A model generated the notes under the pieces. That model ran no database searches, was not told the origin of the DNA, and saw only the letters and a program-made list of their open reading frames with translations. Shown in pieces: positions 3,440 through 27,425 of a stretch of DNA of 37,940 nucleotides. Both the position numbers and the translations under genes were made by a program. How positions within the stretch are numbered: the first letter of the stretch is position 1; every line of letters begins with the position of its first letter. Source of the stretch: a virus; the IMG/VR virus record IMGVR_UViG_3300037189_003621, positions 1-37,940 of that record. The stretch is one strand, 5' to 3'.

Positions 3440-3673
3440 ATGACTACAAAACGTACACCTAGCATTTTTGCAGAAGAAACTTCTGAAGAGGAAGTCGTGG
3501 TCACCCCGGCTCCTCCAGCAGATTCTGGTTTGCGCCGTGCCCGTATAAAAGGCACTTGGACCATGTATTGGGGTCGTGCAATCTTTAACTTTGAAGATGG
3601 CAAGACTTACAATATCCCGTCGGATCTTTGGTCACACCTCAAGGCTCACGGGAACATCTACGACACTCTCTGA
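3440..3673 (+). CDS. Small protein next to the capsid gene, unknown
   Basis: A 77-residue protein with an acidic, Pro-rich N-terminal third (residues 8-30) followed by a compact basic/aromatic segment containing W38, Y41, W42 and W66. The architecture of disordered arm plus small beta domain and the location right after the major capsid gene would suit a head decoration or head-tail joining accessory, but no family is recognised. An AAGGAG site precedes ATG 3440. The downstream fibre gene starts 8 nt after its stop, so the two are probably cotranscribed. Confidence 0.6.
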   Translation: MTTKRTPSIFAEETSEEEVVVTPAPPADSGLRRARIKGTWTMYWGRAIFNFEDGKTYNIPSDLWSHLKAHGNIYDTL

Positions 3674-3681
3674 GGTAATTA

Positions 3682-4998
3682 ATGGGTTACACAATTCCCA
3701 ATGCTCCCGATGCATCCGTAACAGACCAATCTGAGCCAGATAGTGTAGATTTTGTAACCCTTGGTAACCGCTCTAGCGGTGTAGTTTCAGGTTGTGCAGT
3801 TACTGCCTCAGCCGTTGCTGACCAGAACGTAGTTGTTGCCAGTGGCGAAGTTTTATCTAATGGCACGTACTTTCCTGTTACAGGAACTACCCTAACCTTA
3901 GGGTTAGGAGATACGACTAGCCCTAGATTTGACCTTGTGGTGGTTAACTCATCAGGTACTGTGGTTAAGCGTGCAGGTACCGCTGGCAGTAACCCTACCT
4001 TTCCTGCCTTAACAACGGGCGATGTTCTTCTTGCCGCTGTATACCGTGCGGCGGGTACAGCAGATGTTGTTACGTCTACCCGTATTATTGACAAGAGCAT
4101 TACTCAGCCCAGCAATACAAAACGCACCGGTTCGGGAACCCCTTCCAACTCTTTAGGGACAATCGGTGATACTTATGTTAATACCGCTATCTCTTCTAAC
4201 AGTGGTCAATCCCAAGTATGGCTTAAGACTGCTGCTGCGCTATGGGAAAACCTTGCTGAATACACCGTTCCTGAAACTGATTTACTAGTTAATAACACCC
4301 TTGTGCGTCGTAACGGCAGTGGAAACTTTGCAGCAGGAACTATTACTGCCACTTTAACTGGCAACGTGACAGGCAACGTGACAGGCAACGTTATTGGTAA
4401 CCTCACTGGTAACGTGACGGGTAACGTTTCTGGTACAGCAGGAAGTTGGGCTAGTGCCAAAACAATTACTGTAAGTGGGAACGCATCAGGCTCTGTTTCT
4501 CTTGACGGATCAGCAAACGTTACTTTGTCTTTAGGCAGTATTAGCGCATCTAGTTTATTGCAAAGTGGGTCTGGTCCTGCAATGACCTTTAACTGGAACG
4601 GTCAAGGTGGTCAACCTAATTGGTTATGGGGAAGTAATGACGGTACAAACCATTACGTGTACAACCCAAGCAACTTTAACGTTGCTTTTGCCACCAACGC
4701 CACCAACGCTACCAACGCCACCAACTTAACTACTATGCGTAAAGGTACAATTGTTGCTAGAACCGGCCCCGGTAGTGGTGATGCGTACCTCTACGGCACC
4801 ACAGGTGGTGGTCTTTTTTCTATTCCACATGGACTTGGGTCTACTCCGTCTACAGCAATTGTTTGCAATGGAGATGGTGGGGCTTATGGTCTCAATCATA
4901 CTTTTTCTGTGCATAGTTTAGATTCAAGTTCTGTAACCGTAAAAGTTATTGGCTGGACCAGTGGTGACCTTCGTTGTAACTGGGTTGCTTTCGCCTAA
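3682..4998 (+). CDS. Fibre / receptor-binding protein with short tandem repeats
   Basis: A 438-residue Ser/Thr/Gly/Asn-rich protein. Residues 1-150 look like a beta-structured attachment domain. The middle is low-complexity and carries a six-fold four-residue repeat of the type TGNV (about residues 226-249) and a four-fold ATN repeat (about 337-348), both typical of trimeric fibre shafts. The C-terminus, with a PHGLGSTP stretch and a terminal WVAF, resembles the tip domain of phage fibres. It lies between head and neck genes rather than with the baseplate, so it could be a head fibre or a misplaced tail fibre. Function is inferred from composition. Confidence 0.7.
   Translation: MGYTIPNAPDASVTDQSEPDSVDFVTLGNRSSGVVSGCAVTASAVADQNVVVASGEVLSNGTYFPVTGTTLTLGLGDTTSPRFDLVVVNSSGTVVKRAGTAGSNPTFPALTTGDVLLAAVYRAAGTADVVTSTRIIDKSITQPSNTKRTGSGTPSNSLGTIGDTYVNTAISSNSGQSQVWLKTAAALWENLAEYTVPETDLLVNNTLVRRNGSGNFAAGTITATLTGNVTGNVTGNVIGNLTGNVTGNVSGTAGSWASAKTITVSGNASGSVSLDGSANVTLSLGSISASSLLQSGSGPAMTFNWNGQGGQPNWLWGSNDGTNHYVYNPSNFNVAFATNATNATNATNLTTMRKGTIVARTGPGSGDAYLYGTTGGGLFSIPHGLGSTPSTAIVCNGDGGAYGLNHTFSVHSLDSSSVTVKVIGWTSGDLRCNWVAFA
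4357..4428 (+). repeat. Six tandem 12-bp repeats (TGNV shaft)
   Basis: Six consecutive units of consensus ACTGGTAACGTG, each encoding Thr-Gly-Asn-Val or a close variant. The first three copies are nearly identical, differing by one to three bases, which points to recent slippage. The unit length is a multiple of three, so copy-number change would alter fibre length without shifting the frame. Confidence 0.9.
4690..4725 (+). repeat. Four tandem 9-bp repeats (ATN)
   Basis: Four units of GCCACCAAC, one with a single T substitution, encode Ala-Thr-Asn four times. They are in frame inside the fibre gene and, like the upstream 12-bp array, could expand or contract without disrupting translation. 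Confidence 0.9.
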
Positions 4999-5000
4999 CC

Positions 5001-10773: not shown

Positions 10774-12204
10774 ATGGCTGAAAACGAAAAGCAAGTAGGC
10801 GGGAGTCCAATGGACCCCGGTGCAACCGCTGATGTAGGTAAGTCGCCGGGTATCGGCACGGTCAACGTAAACTCACGCACTGCTATTGATTCTTCTGCTT
10901 TTAAAGAACTTAACTCTGAGTTTAAAAAGTTAAATACTTTTGTAACAAAGTTTCAGGCAGACCTTCCTAAACTTATTGAAGGCACCAAGAAATGGGCATC
11001 TGAACTTAACAAAGTTGCTAAGGGCATGTCTGCTGCTTCTAAAGGTGGAGCCGGTGGTGGAAGTTACTTCCCCGATGCGGGGTCTGCTACCAACGTAAAC
11101 TCTGGAAACAGTTACAACGTTAGCAAAACTGTAAACGTCTACCAAGGCGGTGGCGGTGGCGGTGGAGAACCAGCACCCCCCACCAAGGCTCAAATGAAAA
11201 GTGCAACATGGGGTGCTATTAAAGACCTAGCAGGCTCCGCTATAAATGCAATGGATGCTCGTGCTGCACGTGGGGCTTCTTATAGCCTTGGTGCTGATCG
11301 CATGAACATGATGTACCAGCAGATGTCTGGTTTGTCTCAAAACCAAACGTACCATACGTACAGAGAACCACTTCAAAAATACAAACTTGGTATGGGTGGT
11401 ATTAACGAACTCCTTAACCTTCAAGCCACTACTGGTCTAAACGCTCAACGTCAAGCAGGTTCTGTTGAGGCTATGCGAGCATCTTCTGGATTTCAATACA
11501 GCACGTCTGATATAGCCGCACAGACACGGGCACTTGGTTCGGCGCAATCCAGTAACCAAATGTTTATGATGCTTGGTACTGGTATGTATGGAGTTGGTGG
11601 TAAACAACGCACCCAACAGGAAGTTTACCAAGACGTTATTAAACGCACTGGTTTAACTAATGACAAAATGTTAAAAGGGGCGTTTCAACAGGGTTCTATG
11701 ACCCGTGAACGTTTGCGCCAATCAGGAGTACCTGAAGATCAGATTGACTCTATCCTTCAATACGCACAGCAAAATGTTGCCTACCAAAAAAAGGGTGGCA
11801 AAGGGTTCTATGACCCGGGTAACAAAGAACAGCGTTCTTTTATGGGCGTTGAAAAAAACCAATACGCTACACAATTTGAAGAAACAGAACGTGTAAAAGG
11901 TAACAAAGAAGAAAACTTCTACAAACGTCAGAACGATAACTTTGCTGCTGCGGAACGTAACACGCAATCTATTGAAAAACTAACAACTAAAATAGAAGAA
12001 CTTACTTCTAGTTTAATTGGTGCAAACATTGCCACTAAACCGGGGCGTAGTTTCTTGGGCAGTGTTACCAAGTGGGGTAAGAAGATTGCTGGCGCAGGCA
12101 TGATGGCTGCCGGTGCGGGGTTAATTCCTTTTACTGGTGGCACAAGTGCTACTGCATTTACTGCGGGGGCACTTCTTTATTCAAGTGGTGACGGACCTCC
12201 TTAA
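10774..12204 (+). CDS. Tape measure protein, N-terminal part (ends at in-frame TAA)
   Basis: A 476-residue protein: N-terminal helical/coiled region (about 35-90), a Gly-rich hinge with seven consecutive Gly near residue 125-132, long Gln/Ala-rich helices with little secondary-structure interruption, a coiled segment around 385-420, then a hydrophobic Gly/Ala segment (about 435-470) that could insert in a membrane. This is typical of tape measures, which set tail length and help DNA pass the membrane. It ends GDGPP then TAA, but the same frame continues open for 441 more codons with a Gly-rich linker and enzyme domains. AGAGGT precedes ATG 10774. Confidence 0.75.
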   Translation: MAENEKQVGGSPMDPGATADVGKSPGIGTVNVNSRTAIDSSAFKELNSEFKKLNTFVTKFQADLPKLIEGTKKWASELNKVAKGMSAASKGGAGGGSYFPDAGSATNVNSGNSYNVSKTVNVYQGGGGGGGEPAPPTKAQMKSATWGAIKDLAGSAINAMDARAARGASYSLGADRMNMMYQQMSGLSQNQTYHTYREPLQKYKLGMGGINELLNLQATTGLNAQRQAGSVEAMRASSGFQYSTSDIAAQTRALGSAQSSNQMFMMLGTGMYGVGGKQRTQQEVYQDVIKRTGLTNDKMLKGAFQQGSMTRERLRQSGVPEDQIDSILQYAQQNVAYQKKGGKGFYDPGNKEQRSFMGVEKNQYATQFEETERVKGNKEENFYKRQNDNFAAAERNTQSIEKLTTKIEELTSSLIGANIATKPGRSFLGSVTKWGKKIAGAGMMAAGAGLIPFTGGTSATAFTAGALLYSSGDGPP

Positions 12205-13530
12205 GGTGGGGGTAAGGGTGGACCTAATAACTCCAAAGTAACTACGTCAGGTTCACAAGCACCTAACGTTAAAAAGAGTGCAGGAGCACTTAGCCAACTA
12301 AACTCTCGCTTTGCACAAAAAGTGCAGGCAATGCTAGAAGAAAACCCTCGCCTTTACATTGGTAATGGTCTTCGTTCGTCTGCCCAACAAAAAGCAATGT
12401 TCCTTGACCGTTATAAACCTACTAACCAACAGACAGATTTAAAATGGAACGGTACTTATTGGAAGCACGTTAAGGGTGCCGCTGCTGCTCCTCCGGGAAT
12501 GTCTATGCACGAAATTGGACTTGCAGCAGACTTAGGACCAGAATCTGAATTTCCTTGGATTGTAGAAAACGCTGCAAGGTTTGGGCTTCGCCACTTCGCA
12601 GATGTAAACAACGAACCATGGCACGTTCAACCTGTAGAACTTCCGGGGAGCCGTCGTGAGTACGAAGCCGCTGGTGCTCCTTGGGGAACTAAGGGTGAGA
12701 AGTTTGACCCTAACTCCATCATCATTGGAGGAGCCGCTTCTGCACTTGTTGAATCTGCCCCCGGTTCAGGTGGAAGTAGCAAAGGGTTTAAATGGTCTGG
12801 CATGAACATGGGCGAAATCTTGGATACAAGTGCTCATAACGCCGCTTTTGGAACATCCTCTGGAGGTAGTAAAGGTTCTACACGTCGTGGTAGCGCTGGT
12901 ACTGGTTCTACAAAAGGCAAGACACTGGGTGGCATTGAAGTTGCCCGTATCTTCTATAACGCAGGGTTCCGTGGGGCTGACCTTGTAAAAGCAGTTGCCA
13001 TTGCACAACGTGAGTCTAGGTTCAACACGGGAGCCTATAACCCTGACGTTACAACAAAAGATAAGTCTTTTGGTTTGATGCAAATCAACATGATTGGAAA
13101 CTTAGGACCTGCACGTCGTAAACAGTTCGGCATTAAGTCCGACGAGGAATTGCTTGATCCTAACGTAAACGCTCGGGCTGCTTACGCTATCTACAAATCA
13201 AGTAATAAGTCATTCCATGCTTGGGGTGAGTACAAGGGCATGGATTCATCTGCACATACAAACTCAGCCGCTGCTGCTAAATACGTAAAATCGGCAGGGT
13301 ATAGCACAACAGGTGACCCTGTAAAAGTAAACAGTGCTGGAGCAGGCGCTCCAATTGCTATGGGTGGTGGAACCACGATGGTTGGTGGAGCCTCTTATAA
13401 TATTACTGTTGCTCCTAATATTTCTTTACAAGGTGGAGCCGGTGGAACATATGACCTTCCAAAACTTGCACGAGATGTAGCCACTTTAATGGAACGTGAA
13501 ATTCGCCTAACTATGCTAAGGACTACATAA
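12205..13530 (+). CDS. Tail lysin: M15 peptidase plus lytic transglycosylase (continuation of the tape measure frame)
   Basis: In the same frame as the tape measure and open directly after its TAA. The first ATG is 12322, but domain sequence begins about 20 codons earlier, so a start there would clip the fold. Counting from ATG 12322, S61-x-H63-x2-G66-x-A68-x-D70 and E98-x2-H101 are the M15 (VanY-type) zinc-peptidase motifs. A Ser/Gly linker (about 145-200) follows, then an SLT-type transglycosylase with catalytic E230 in AIAQRESRF and SFGLMQIN at 248-255. The two activities would cut peptide stems and glycan strands of peptidoglycan during DNA entry. The C-terminus resembles a tape-measure end segment. 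Confidence 0.8.
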   Translation, partial: GGGKGGPNNSKVTTSGSQAPNVKKSAGALSQLNSRFAQKVQAMLEENPRLYIGNGLRSSAQQKAMFLDRYKPTNQQTDLKWNGTYWKHVKGAAAAPPGMSMHEIGLAADLGPESEFPWIVENAARFGLRHFADVNNEPWHVQPVELPGSRREYEAAGAPWGTKGEKFDPNSIIIGGAASALVESAPGSGGSSKGFKWSGMNMGEILDTSAHNAAFGTSSGGSKGSTRRGSAGTGSTKGKTLGGIEVARIFYNAGFRGADLVKAVAIAQRESRFNTGAYNPDVTTKDKSFGLMQINMIGNLGPARRKQFGIKSDEELLDPNVNARAAYAIYKSSNKSFHAWGEYKGMDSSAHTNSAAAAKYVKSAGYSTTGDPVKVNSAGAGAPIAMGGGTTMVGGASYNITVAPNISLQGGAGGTYDLPKLARDVATLMEREIRLTMLRTT

Positions 13531-15206
13531 TGGGTTACGCAACAAACCAATTTGAAAACTTTACAAACTACGAAGGTCCTACTAAAGACCTTAAACGTAC
13601 TGTAGACGATAACCCTAACTTCATATATCCAGACTCTCGTGTACCTGACATCTATAACCCTATTACAGGTAACTCTAATAAAAGGTATACCGTTGACACT
13701 CGGTTCCAACGAGGGTTTATTCGTGGCATCTATCCTGCCGTACTTGGTGGTACATCTAACCCATCGGCAGCAAAAGTAAAACAACGTCGTCTTTTCTTTC
13801 AGTTTAACCCTGCAACCATAGACCGTAGTGTGGCAATGAATGGCGAAACTATGATGCCACTGCTTCAAGACGCTGCTCAGATGTTTCAACCAATCAACGG
13901 TAACGCTCAGTTTAGTTTTGAATTGTTGTTTGACAGACAGGCAGAAGTTGTCATGTCGGAATACCGTAACAATGATGGAAACTTAGTTACAGGAGCCACC
14001 TTGTCAGGGTCCCTTGATAACTATGGCGCTAACTGGCAACAATCAAACGTTTCTGACCTAGGTGTACTTGCCGATCTCTATGTCTTGGACTCAATTATTG
14101 GGCAGTCTATTACTCCGGATATGACATCGTTCTTAAAAGACTATTGGAATTACGTAGACAAAGCAGTAACTTCTTACAACTCTAGGACTGGAGGTGCTTC
14201 TGCTACTGGGTTTGATGCAGCATCTTTTGAAAAAGACGCATCAGTTAACTATGGCAACTCTGCGTTCTTAAGTCCATTACCTATCCGCATTGTGTTCTCT
14301 TCTTTGTTTATGGTTGAAGGTTTTGTTACTGCAAGCAGTGTGCAGTTTATGAAGTTTACAAAGAACTATGTGCCCACCGTGTGCCGTGTGGCCCTTGACG
14401 TTAAGGCACTGTATATTGGATTTGCACGAGAAAAGTCTTACCTTACAGACACAATTGCAAAAGGAATTGCAGACGAAGTTGCTCAACAAAATGAGGCACA
14501 GGCTGTTGTTCAAACTGCTACTACATTCTCAAAAGATGCTATTAGGTTTAAATATGGCATTACAAGTTTATGGAAACGACCTGAAAACTTGCAGGGTATC
14601 TCTTATGATTCTACTTTTTCTACTTTTTCTAATTTCTTTTCAGCAAGTGGATACAATGACAACCTCTTGACATTTGAAGGACCTGTAGATAGTTATGTAG
14701 TTAAGTCGCTTAGTGAAGAAGTAAAAAAAGGTGCTGTTTGGAGTTTTGCAAGTGCTCTTCAAATATTTGAATATGCTGCTGATATTGAAGCAAATGATAT
14801 TCCAAAAGAAAATGGATGGTACGGTAAAAAGATATTCCAATCTTTCATAAACTTTGATGACTTAGGAAAAAGTTCAGTAACTGGAAGTCCTTTTAATATA
14901 ACCAATGAAAAAATGGCAAACGAAACTAACAAAAAAACTAGTTCAACTAGCCCAAGCCAACATGTTTGGAGGGCTATTGGGAAGCCAAACGTAAAAACAA
15001 TTGGTGCTAACTCTATAATTTTATTTAAAATAAAACACAGTATTACAACAAGTGTTAACGTTCAAGGAACTATTACCCCTATTACGTCATATGTTGAAGA
15101 TGACTTTACGCTAATTGCCAATAGCACATCTGCATGGGAAAACTGGGTTGGAAGACAACCAACATGGCTCCTTCCAAAAACAACCCTTACAGGAGCGTAC
15201 CAATGA
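13530..15206 (+). CDS. Baseplate / tube-initiator-like protein
   Basis: A 558-residue protein. Residues about 85-125 contain an LFFQFNPATIDRS segment like those of contractile-injection-system tube/baseplate adaptor proteins (the CIS-tube type N-domain). The rest is Ser/Asn-rich with beta segments and no enzymatic motif. It is translationally coupled on both sides: its ATG overlaps the lysin stop (TAATG) and its TGA overlaps the next ATG. The position between lysin and a LysM-sized protein matches the baseplate adaptor that joins the tube to the hub. The family call is from motif resemblance only. Confidence 0.55.
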   Translation: MGYATNQFENFTNYEGPTKDLKRTVDDNPNFIYPDSRVPDIYNPITGNSNKRYTVDTRFQRGFIRGIYPAVLGGTSNPSAAKVKQRRLFFQFNPATIDRSVAMNGETMMPLLQDAAQMFQPINGNAQFSFELLFDRQAEVVMSEYRNNDGNLVTGATLSGSLDNYGANWQQSNVSDLGVLADLYVLDSIIGQSITPDMTSFLKDYWNYVDKAVTSYNSRTGGASATGFDAASFEKDASVNYGNSAFLSPLPIRIVFSSLFMVEGFVTASSVQFMKFTKNYVPTVCRVALDVKALYIGFAREKSYLTDTIAKGIADEVAQQNEAQAVVQTATTFSKDAIRFKYGITSLWKRPENLQGISYDSTFSTFSNFFSASGYNDNLLTFEGPVDSYVVKSLSEEVKKGAVWSFASALQIFEYAADIEANDIPKENGWYGKKIFQSFINFDDLGKSSVTGSPFNITNEKMANETNKKTSSTSPSQHVWRAIGKPNVKTIGANSIILFKIKHSITTSVNVQGTITPITSYVEDDFTLIANSTSAWENWVGRQPTWLLPKTTLTGAYQ

Positions 15207-21276: not shown

Positions 21277-22086
21277 ATGGCAGTATACGGAATATTAGGT
21301 AGTGGTTCTTGCGCTAAGAATGTTATTGAAGATGGGTTAAAAGATATTGGGATTGAAAACAATGTCTTTCTTGTAGTACTTCGTAAAGGTGCTTCAGACA
21401 ACGAAGACCGTGTGTATGAGTTTCTCATGGAGAACGAGGCTGACTTCCATGCATTTACAAACAGCAAAGCCCCACAAATTATCAAGGATTCAGCCAGTCG
21501 GATATATGACTTTGATGACAACGAGGCAATGTTTCCACACTTGTTAAAAGAACTTAAAGACAAAAAAGGAACACTCCTTTTGATGTGGAACAACGAAACC
21601 GCAGATGCTTTAACAGGTATTTGTTTTGATGCTTATGACCTAGGCATTCCTGTGCTTGAACTCAGCAATGGGTTAGTACCCATCAATGTTGTTGCAGAAC
21701 CTACAGAGGGTGAAGAACCAGACGAAGAAGAGGTTGTAGAAATTGAACCTTTTACTGAGGCTGAGATGCGTTCAATGAGCATTGGAGTTCTGCGTAAAGC
21801 AGCAACTGCTCACGGCATTGAAGGTGTGGGGGCATACTCTAAAGAAGAATTACTTATGGTATTAACAGACACTAAATCTCATAAAGAGAAACTAGAAGAG
21901 GATGTTGAAGTGAAAATAACTGTAACACCTACCCCAGTAGTCACTACAACACCTGTAGTACACGATAGGCAGACTCTAGAGGCACCTGAAGGCGACTGCA
22001 TGGTTACGGTAGTCATGCCTAATGGCACTGTCATCTCAACCCCTGCCACTATGGGCGAGGTTCGCCTAATCCTAGGACTTGGTTGA
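21277..22086 (+). CDS. Acidic two-part protein with Rho-N/SAP-like segment
   Basis: A 269-residue protein with a strong AAGGAG site. Residues 1-130 look like a small Rossmann-type alpha/beta domain (starting AVYGILGSGSCAKN). An acidic linker (140-155) leads to a helix-extended-loop-helix around 158-195 (MRSMSIGVLRKAATAHGI, then YSKEELLMVL) resembling Rho-N/SAP nucleic-acid-binding modules. The C-terminus is Thr/Pro/Val-rich and ends in a short beta domain. It is the last plus-strand gene of the virion block and its 3' end overlaps the convergent Dps gene by 15 nt. The function is unknown. Confidence 0.6.
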   Translation: MAVYGILGSGSCAKNVIEDGLKDIGIENNVFLVVLRKGASDNEDRVYEFLMENEADFHAFTNSKAPQIIKDSASRIYDFDDNEAMFPHLLKELKDKKGTLLLMWNNETADALTGICFDAYDLGIPVLELSNGLVPINVVAEPTEGEEPDEEEVVEIEPFTEAEMRSMSIGVLRKAATAHGIEGVGAYSKEELLMVLTDTKSHKEKLEEDVEVKITVTPTPVVTTTPVVHDRQTLEAPEGDCMVTVVMPNGTVISTPATMGEVRLILGLG

Positions 22087-22509
22087 TGCCTTAAGTTGCC
22101 ATGCCCATTTCTTGTGCATGTCATCTCGTTCCGCAAGGAAGTTAGCAATGCCCTGTTCATCAGCAGCGAGTGCGGCTTTAAGAGCAAGATTAACGCTCTT
22201 AATAAGACCCTCGTTAATGGTAAGCAGGGCTTTTGCCATTGCCTTAGGAGAAGGGTCAACATCTTTAGACTCTACGGTACGAAGGTCAATAAACTTATTT
22301 AATGTGAAGGGAGCATACTCCCCAAGTTTACGAAGGTCTTCTGCCAGTGGGTCAATAGCGCTGTAGACATCTTCATAGATCTCTGCAAACAATGAGTGGT
22401 ACTGAGAGAAGTCCTGACCTTCTACGTTCCAATGGTAACCGTGTGCAACAAAGTACATAGTGACGCTATCGGCAAGAGTTGTTTTAAGAGCGTCAGTTAA
22501 TTTAGACAT
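22072..22509 (-). CDS. dps: Dps-like ferritin-fold DNA-protection protein
   Basis: A 145-residue minus-strand protein. The ferroxidase ligands are all present with standard spacing: H26 in the HGYHW segment, H38, D53 and E57, matching H51/H63/D78/E82 of E. coli Dps. Dps dodecamers oxidise and store iron and shield DNA from peroxide. The start at 22509 is chosen because its ATG overlaps the upstream stop (TAATG); a start 12 nt earlier (22521) is less likely. The C-terminus is short and basic. It may protect phage or host DNA during infection, which is inference. Confidence 0.9.
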   Translation of the reverse strand: MSKLTDALKTTLADSVTMYFVAHGYHWNVEGQDFSQYHSLFAEIYEDVYSAIDPLAEDLRKLGEYAPFTLNKFIDLRTVESKDVDPSPKAMAKALLTINEGLIKSVNLALKAALAADEQGIANFLAERDDMHKKWAWQLKASTKS

Positions 22510-22793
22510 TAACAATCCCATTTTCTAAGCGATTTGTTTATACGTGAATCAGGATCATTAGCAGTTTTAGATGAAGTGTTTTTCTTCTTCATACCTTCCA
22601 TACGAGCACAAAAAGAATCACGACGAGCGGCAGACTTAGCAGACTTCTTAGCCTGCTCTTTAGATACAGGAGGCTTAAGGTTACTGCCGGGGTTAGCACG
22701 CTCATAGGATTTGCGTCCCTTTTCGTTTAGTCCACCCTCTTTGTCTTTTCCTTCTTTGCGTTGCCACGCTTCAGATTTCTTTTTAGCAGCCAT
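22509..22793 (-). CDS. Small basic protein, DUF6321-like
   Basis: A 94-residue, very Lys/Arg-rich protein with the pattern WQRKEGKDKEGGLNEKGR near its start, then NPGSNLKPP, a RRDSFCARMEGMKKK core and DPDSRINKSLRKWDC at its end. I recall this pattern from DUF6321-type phage proteins of unknown function. Its charge suggests nucleic-acid binding. Translation is coupled on both sides by TAATG overlaps with the 54-residue gene upstream and Dps downstream, so all are read from one minus-strand transcript. Confidence 0.7.
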   Translation of the reverse strand: MAAKKKSEAWQRKEGKDKEGGLNEKGRKSYERANPGSNLKPPVSKEQAKKSAKSAARRDSFCARMEGMKKKNTSSKTANDPDSRINKSLRKWDC

Positions 22794-25286: not shown

Positions 25287-26536
25287 TGGCAAACGCTGAA
25301 CACCTCTTACTCAGCAAAGTTTTACAAACAGGTTCCGTCACAGAAGTAATTGATGCTGGTATACGTCCAGACCATTTCACAGGTGAGTACACCGGCATGT
25401 GGATGTGGCTCCTTGAGTTCTGGCGTAAGCACGGTTCAGTTCCTACTGAGCGTTCGTTTAAACAAGAGTTTGGTGACTTCCGTGTTGATGACACAGAGGC
25501 AGAACCTTTTTCTGCATTAATTGATGAGTTGTACCACGCTTACAAACGTGAGCATATTGTCATGTCCATTGCCTCTGCAATGCCAATGCTTAACAACAAC
25601 AATGTTGATGACGCATACAAGATGCTTGCCGAAGGTTTACAAAAGGCTTCTGTAGAAACTGCTCACTTACGTGACCTTGACATCATTCAGAACTGGGAAG
25701 CACGCCTAAAGCGTTACGATGAGATTCGTCAGATGCCCAACGCACTACGTGGGATTCCTACAGGCTTTACAGGTCTTGACCGCATTACCGCAGGACTACG
25801 CCCACAGCAGTTGATTACCTTTGTAGGTGAAGCCAAAAAGGGTAAGTCGCTCATGACTCTTATTATGGCTAACGCTGCTCACCAACATGGTATTACCCCC
25901 ATGTACGTGTCCTTTGAAATGAGCATTGAAGAGCAAGAGGCACGTTACGACGCATTGCTATCAGGTGTAGCGCACACCAAGATTATTCGTGGTGACCTAA
26001 ACAACCGTGAGATGGAACAGATTCAAAAGGCGTTACGCCTACAAAAGAACATGCACCCTTTTATTATGACTGAGGACTCTGCGTCGCTTACTACCGTGAG
26101 CGCTATTGCAGGAAAGGTTCAGCAGTACCGCCCCGGCATTCTATTTGTTGACGGTGTGTATCTTATGGACGATGAGCACGGCGAGCCTAAGGGAAGCCCA
26201 CAGGCACTTACTAACATCACTAGATCTTTGAAGCGTCTTGCCCAGCGCTTTGACATCCCCATCATTGGCACTACACAAGTGCTGTCATGGAAATTGGGCA
26301 ACAAGAAATCACGACAGGTTACTGCGGATTCAATTGGCTACTCATCATCATTTGTTCAAGACTCTGACTTAGTTCTAGGCGTAGAGTCCGACCCTGACAT
26401 TGATAACCAATCAATCATCCGTGTAATTCTTGCTCGTAGCGCCCCTAAAGGCGAGGTACGTATTAAATGGGATTGGGAAAACATGGACTTTACAGAGGTG
26501 GATGAAAGCGATGATGGTGGCAACTGGTATTACTGA
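25286..26536 (+). CDS. DnaB-like replicative helicase
   Basis: A 416-residue RecA-fold helicase. The N-terminal domain (about 1-125) is helical. The C-terminal motor has TGFTGLDRITAGLRPQQL before Walker A GEAKKGKS (181-188) and Walker B ILFVDG (285-290), followed by a TTQ motif (near 334) typical of DnaB H3. The start at 25286 uses a TAATG overlap; an upstream ATG at 25274 would add four residues. It unwinds the fork ahead of the polymerase. Confidence 0.9.
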   Translation: MANAEHLLLSKVLQTGSVTEVIDAGIRPDHFTGEYTGMWMWLLEFWRKHGSVPTERSFKQEFGDFRVDDTEAEPFSALIDELYHAYKREHIVMSIASAMPMLNNNNVDDAYKMLAEGLQKASVETAHLRDLDIIQNWEARLKRYDEIRQMPNALRGIPTGFTGLDRITAGLRPQQLITFVGEAKKGKSLMTLIMANAAHQHGITPMYVSFEMSIEEQEARYDALLSGVAHTKIIRGDLNNREMEQIQKALRLQKNMHPFIMTEDSASLTTVSAIAGKVQQYRPGILFVDGVYLMDDEHGEPKGSPQALTNITRSLKRLAQRFDIPIIGTTQVLSWKLGNKKSRQVTADSIGYSSSFVQDSDLVLGVESDPDIDNQSIIRVILARSAPKGEVRIKWDWENMDFTEVDESDDGGNWYY

Positions 26537-27425
26537 TTTATCACATGTTCTTGTAGAACTTGGTGTAGACGTTCGCCGTGCGGGTGACAAAGAAATATCA
26601 GGGTGTTGCCCTGTTCACTTAAAGCGCACAGGTCATATAGACAGGTCACCGTCATGGTCTATGAATACCCAGACTGGTCTGTGGATTTGTTACTCATGCG
26701 GCGCTAAAGGAACATTGTCAAGTCTTGTTTCAGACTTAACGGGAACAGACCAAAGCGTTATAGAAGTACATAAGTTTCTTATTGAGGCAGGACTTAAACG
26801 CCTCAATGCAAAAGAAGAAGTAGAAGAGCAGCCTGAAGTTGATTGGGTGTCCTATAGCCAGTTCAGGGATGTTCCCCTTAACCTTTTGCAGAGTAGGTCA
26901 CTTGCCCCCAACGTTGCACGGTTACACGGTATCAAGTGGGATGTTACTAATCGTTGCTGGGTTATCCCTATAGTTGCACCCACAGGGGAACTACTGGGTT
27001 GGCAGTCTAAGAAAAAAGGTTGGGTTCGCAACTACCCAATAGGCATCAAGAAAAGCGAAACGTTATTCGGTATTGAACGCTTTACCTCAGACACAGCGGT
27101 GTTAGTAGAGTCTCCACTTGACGTAGTGAGGTTTGCGTCTTTAGGGTTAAAGGCTCAGTGCCTGTCTTCCTTTGGCGCTTTTGTAAGTAAGCAGCAGATT
27201 GACCTGCTATCTGCCGTAGCCAAACGTGTCATCATTGCTATGGATAATGACGAGGCAGGTCTAGAAGCCAACAAGCGTTTATTTAAAACCTTGCCACGTT
27301 TCACAGACGGTACCTTTTGGATAAACTATAAGCACACATACGCAAAAGATATAGGTGAGATGGACGACGACGAAATACGTACAGCGATTGACGGCGCATC
27401 CGTAATGCCGGGATGGATAATGTGA
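26511..27425 (+). CDS. DnaG-like primase with zinc-binding domain
   Basis: A 304-residue protein from ATG 26511, which overlaps the helicase by 26 nt; GAGGTGG lies 9-10 nt before it, and the longer frame from 26430 is unlikely. The N-terminus has a CPVH...CYSC zinc site (C33, H36, C60, C63). A Toprim domain follows with E200 in AVLVESPLD and D245/D247 in IIAMDNDEAG. It synthesises RNA primers for lagging-strand replication. It is shorter than cellular DnaG and lacks a separate helicase-binding domain, as in many phages. Confidence 0.85.
   Translation: MMVATGITDLSHVLVELGVDVRRAGDKEISGCCPVHLKRTGHIDRSPSWSMNTQTGLWICYSCGAKGTLSSLVSDLTGTDQSVIEVHKFLIEAGLKRLNAKEEVEEQPEVDWVSYSQFRDVPLNLLQSRSLAPNVARLHGIKWDVTNRCWVIPIVAPTGELLGWQSKKKGWVRNYPIGIKKSETLFGIERFTSDTAVLVESPLDVVRFASLGLKAQCLSSFGAFVSKQQIDLLSAVAKRVIIAMDNDEAGLEANKRLFKTLPRFTDGTFWINYKHTYAKDIGEMDDDEIRTAIDGASVMPGWIM

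Follow-up and report, generated by a model that had tools for sequence, protein, structure and literature searches.

The window analysed here, a 37,940-base IMG/VR record (IMGVR_UViG_3300037189_003621) that is the sole contig of its assembly, carries a tape-measure/tail-lysin gene in which an in-frame TAA separates the tape-measure part from two wall-cutting domains. This locus raises the question of how such a stop is to be read. The preliminary description, made from the letters alone, offered three readings: stop-codon readthrough that yields a minority tape measure carrying the lysin, a recent nonsense mutation, or an assembly error. Here, we compare the gene with its relatives, estimate the selection acting beyond the stop, and weigh these readings together with further alternatives.

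Results

Gene content and neighborhood

Pfam and PHROG matches revealed the gene content of an uncultured contractile-tail phage, with the gene order portal, capsid, sheath, gp19-like tube, T4_baseplate-like, the gene at 10774–13530, hub, baseplate J, and tail P2 I-like, and with the replication genes located in the right-hand part of the window. The gene at 10774–13530 lies between the tube and T4_baseplate-like genes on one side and the baseplate and hub genes on the other, which is the placement expected of a tape measure. A near-identity search of cultured phages found no near-identical one. The host is likely actinobacterial, judging from the sheath sequence, which resembles those of Streptomyces phages such as BRock.

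Elsewhere in the window, a ferritin-like gene of Dps size (22072–22521, minus strand; PF00210, E 1.5e-16) is present on the opposite strand amid late genes, and the ORF adjoining it (22509–22793, minus strand) matches DUF6321. A DnaG-like primase ORF with Zn ribbon and Toprim (26430–27425) has a TTG start and overlaps the DnaB-like helicase gene by ~107 bases; its true start probably lies further downstream.

One gene with one nonsense codon

The frame runs from the ATG at 10774 through ...SSGDGPP to the TAA at 12202–12204; beyond it, another 441 sense codons lead up to a second TAA, whose last base is 13530 (Table 1). As first described, it is otherwise open from end to end, and the continuation encodes an M15 peptidase and an SLT transglycosylase, both identified by Pfam matches and both with intact catalytic motifs in the window (MHEIGLAAD and WHVQP in M15; RES in SLT). 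Because 441 open codons of conserved enzyme beyond a stop are not a matter of chance, 10774–13530 is a single gene carrying one nonsense codon. The two hydrolase domains lie inside a tape-measure frame (PHROG 16823, tape measure), which is a single frame in relatives; the N-terminal 476 codons gave no Pfam or PHROG match.

In the model of an intact relative, helices cover most of residues 41–418, the pLDDT is below 50 at residues 411–493, around the stop position 477, and the C-terminal helix corresponds to residues 895–916, modeled with low to moderate confidence. When relatives were compared, the linker was found to vary freely in both length and sequence after the GDP/GDG motif.

Table 1. 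Features of the interrupted tape-measure/tail-lysin gene, with positions in the window.
Feature	Position	Strand	Basis or remark
Tape-measure/tail-lysin gene	10774–13530	+	918-codon single frame in relatives; interrupted at codon 477 in the window
N-terminal 476 codons: helical tape-measure part and variable hydrophobic stretch	10774–12201	+	Model of intact relative
Strongly divergent patch just upstream of the stop	12111–12189	+	Differs from the closest relative at ~43 of 79 bases; no indel
Hypervariable Gly-rich linker joining the tape-measure part to the M15 domain	12190–12303	+	Family comparison and model
In-frame TAA, private to the window contig	12202–12204	+	Glu codon in three close relatives; no stop in others
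M15 D-Ala-D-Ala carboxypeptidase/endopeptidase domain	12304–12630	+	VanY/M15 PF02557, E 4.8e-8
SLT transglycosylase domain	12940–13221	+	PF18896, E 9e-13; PF01464, E 1.2e-8
Conserved C-terminal helix of the full-length protein	13456–13527	+	No difference from the closest relative; conserved across the family alignment

Relatives covering the codon all read it as sense

Three close relatives were available at the site (IMG/VR 3300007639_000002, 3300009051_000038, and 3300027211_000088, of 79, 12.5, and 6.4 kb, respectively). They are 92% identical to the window at the nucleotide level over 11826–14416, a sample of three in which two are identical over this interval and the third is 99.5% like them, and 3300007639_000002 is ~96% identical to the window over the first 14.4 kb. 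All three share the gene and the gene order with the window, but carry a Glu codon at the position of the stop in an uninterrupted gene, which spans 918 codons in the one relative covering it whole.

A wider search via the sheath gene gave ~80 loci. In every one of the ~40 non-redundant relatives spanning the junction, nearly all of which show 32–54% identity, the N-terminal and lysin parts are in one frame, and the proteins are ~755–990 residues long where complete. A stop at the position of 12202–12204 was found in no relative spanning the site. The alignment of homologs that had been proposed as a check on the stop thus gave a consistent answer: wherever a relative covers the codon, it encodes an amino acid, which favors a recent nonsense mutation or an error. 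With no relative carrying a stop here, readthrough loses its evolutionary support.

The nearest cultured phage, Streptomyces phage BRock (Borockvirus), resembles the window in having sheath, tube, and baseplate genes followed by a large lysin-annotated gene (gp134, "endolysin"), and its sheath is 34% identical to that of the window over 78% of the query. It differs in having a single 1025-codon ORF at this place, with homology judged by position; the N-terminal part had no detectable tblastn match in the cultured-phage collection. The BRock gene is probably also one frame across the junction.

The integrity of the other genes was also compared. No frame-breaking indel was found in any window gene compared, and no internal stop in the relatives' copies, in a comparison where about 24.2–28.0 kb was without a close relative and a few other genes were covered only partly. 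Among the 532 gene-locus pairs examined by tblastn, from related loci that include redundant ones, a single break was flagged. Since breaks are rare in the related contigs, the lesion in the window is unusual; such lesions are rare, yet they do occur in related contigs. A portal gene fragment in one locus (L077:2–919) has two internal stops in the tblastn alignment. Seen separately from the tblastn break, the homolog of the 10774–13530 gene in another locus (L031:9440–10985) changes frame near the N-terminal Gly-rich region, possibly through assembly collapse.

Selection and age of the stop

Between the window and the closest relative, dN/dS was 0.12 after the stop and 0.11 for codons 1–438, and the synonymous and nonsynonymous differences numbered 14 and 1 in the M15 domain and 14 and 0 in the SLT domain. 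Coding constraint therefore extends beyond the stop, as expected under readthrough; it is equally expected with a very recent stop or an error. When the amino-acid differences after the stop were polarized by other relatives, 10 were derived in the window, 9 were derived in the relative, and 3 were unresolved, with no excess of changes on the window lineage. With half of the differences placed on the window branch, untranslated sequence would be expected to accumulate ~50 nonsynonymous changes there in the enzyme domains (14 × 488/136), and at most 1 was seen. By a Poisson 95% limit, the time spent untranslated amounts to no more than about a tenth of that branch. Given the purifying selection after the stop, three options are left: the stop arose within the last ~10% of the branch, it is false, or it is still bypassed, and bypass would fit this selection as well.

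A mosaic tail region around the stop

The tail region at ~11–13 kb is several times more divergent than its neighbors, with pS of ~0.2–0.25 vs 0.04–0.07. Counted per 500 bases, the differences from the closest relative were 42–66 at 11–13 kb, up to 77 at 4.5–5 kb, and mostly 0–19 elsewhere. This pattern suggests mosaic exchange at 11000–13000 and ~3500–5000, which would involve the tape-measure region and a tail-fibre-like gene, respectively. The stop itself lies 13 bp downstream of the 79-bp divergent patch listed in Table 1. The patch encodes the hydrophobic stretch just before the GDG motif, equal in length but strongly divergent, and an exact 26-mer search found the window's version in no other IMG/VR contig. 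Consensus assembly is prone to errors in strain mosaics of this kind.

Taken with the comparisons above, the stop is very likely a nonsense lesion private to this contig in an ordinary one-gene tape measure, being either a consensus error or a fresh, probably defective mutation. A consensus error is slightly favored over the mutation, because the stop adjoins the divergent patch in the strain-mosaic tail region.

Alternative explanations

Programmed readthrough, which would make the short tape measure the main product and a lysin-bearing form the minor one, is very unlikely. It is consistent with the 441-codon open frame downstream and the strong purifying selection on it, and with the position of the stop in a flexible linker; the Pro-Pro before the stop, a slow termination context, also counts in its favor. 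Against it, the stop is missing in every relative, including those 92% identical, and TAA followed by G is not known to be a leaky context. Bypass would require a context shared by no relative, and TAA is the normal terminator in the window: the 46 listed genes, with both halves of the interrupted gene counted, end in TAA (27), TGA (17), or TAG (2), and since TAA ends 26 other genes, recoding or reassignment of this codon was rejected. Neither the window nor the fetched relatives yielded any tRNA, suppressor tRNA included. The imperfect palindrome described around the stop, CCTTAAGG, is present, but the role in pausing suggested for it did not stand, as the close relatives have another base at the stop position and lack the palindrome. 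The substitution that creates the stop also creates the palindrome, which is therefore not a conserved signal, and a palindrome or anti-Shine-Dalgarno element was rejected as a functional signal. At the level of titles and abstracts, no precedent for tape-measure readthrough was found in the literature; the "readthrough" of PMC3091744 refers to the −1 frameshift of P2 E/E′ and was set aside as a precedent. There is likewise little chance that the TAA is a real, tolerated, leaky codon in the linker, giving mostly short tape measures and few with the lysin, and thus a newly arisen two-product tape measure.

Even less probable is the production of two proteins, with a short tape measure ending at the stop and the lysin half made by reinitiation or from an internal start, GTG 12322 or ATG 12331. 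An ORF does begin at 12322, and in the structural model the stop falls in a linker between folded parts, so the halves could fold apart. The first ATG had been placed at 12322 in the preliminary description; this codon is GTG, and the first ATG is at 12331. Both starts are situated inside the M15 domain and have no plausible Shine-Dalgarno site, as it had stated for 12322, at 117–126 bases past the stop, and an internal start for the lysin half was rejected for this reason. No start codon with a ribosome-binding site was found in the stretch separating the stop from the M15 domain, and none of the relatives examined has two separate genes at this locus.

Ribosomal hopping or paired frameshifting that skips the stop is extremely improbable: a matching GGA CCT pair does occur in frame before the stop and shortly after it, but the +1 and −1 frames at the stop close after 12 and 4 codons, which also disposes of a simple frameshift, and in the close relatives the codons in between are plain coding sequence, read without a stop.

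Discussion

In the relatives, the gene product is one chain, in which the helical tape-measure part is joined by a flexible linker to the two wall-cutting domains, with a C-terminal helix that may anchor the full-length protein at the baseplate. In the window, the TAA in the linker would have arisen as a consensus error, where the assembly passes through a strain mosaic. Alternatively, it would be a very recent real mutation leading to a 476-residue truncated protein and probably to a defective phage. We infer both the choice between error and mutation and the phenotype from the comparisons presented here.

In TP901-1, infectivity depends on the last 60 residues of the tape measure (PMC5099701), so a truncated tape measure in the window phage is unlikely to work or assemble. 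Mycobacteriophage TM4 resembles the window in having a tape measure with a wall-cutting motif (mt3), and differs in being a siphophage with another motif in a single uninterrupted gene (PMC1796659). TM4 with mt3 alone deleted is viable and has a shorter tail (PMC1796659). That deletion removes one motif, whereas the stop in the window would remove the whole C-terminal half.

Were readthrough real at this site, it would represent a new means of controlling the dose of a tail lysin, but the evidence points the other way. More generally, the locus calls for caution: a private stop seen in just one contig can mimic recoding, and comparing relatives resolves the case.
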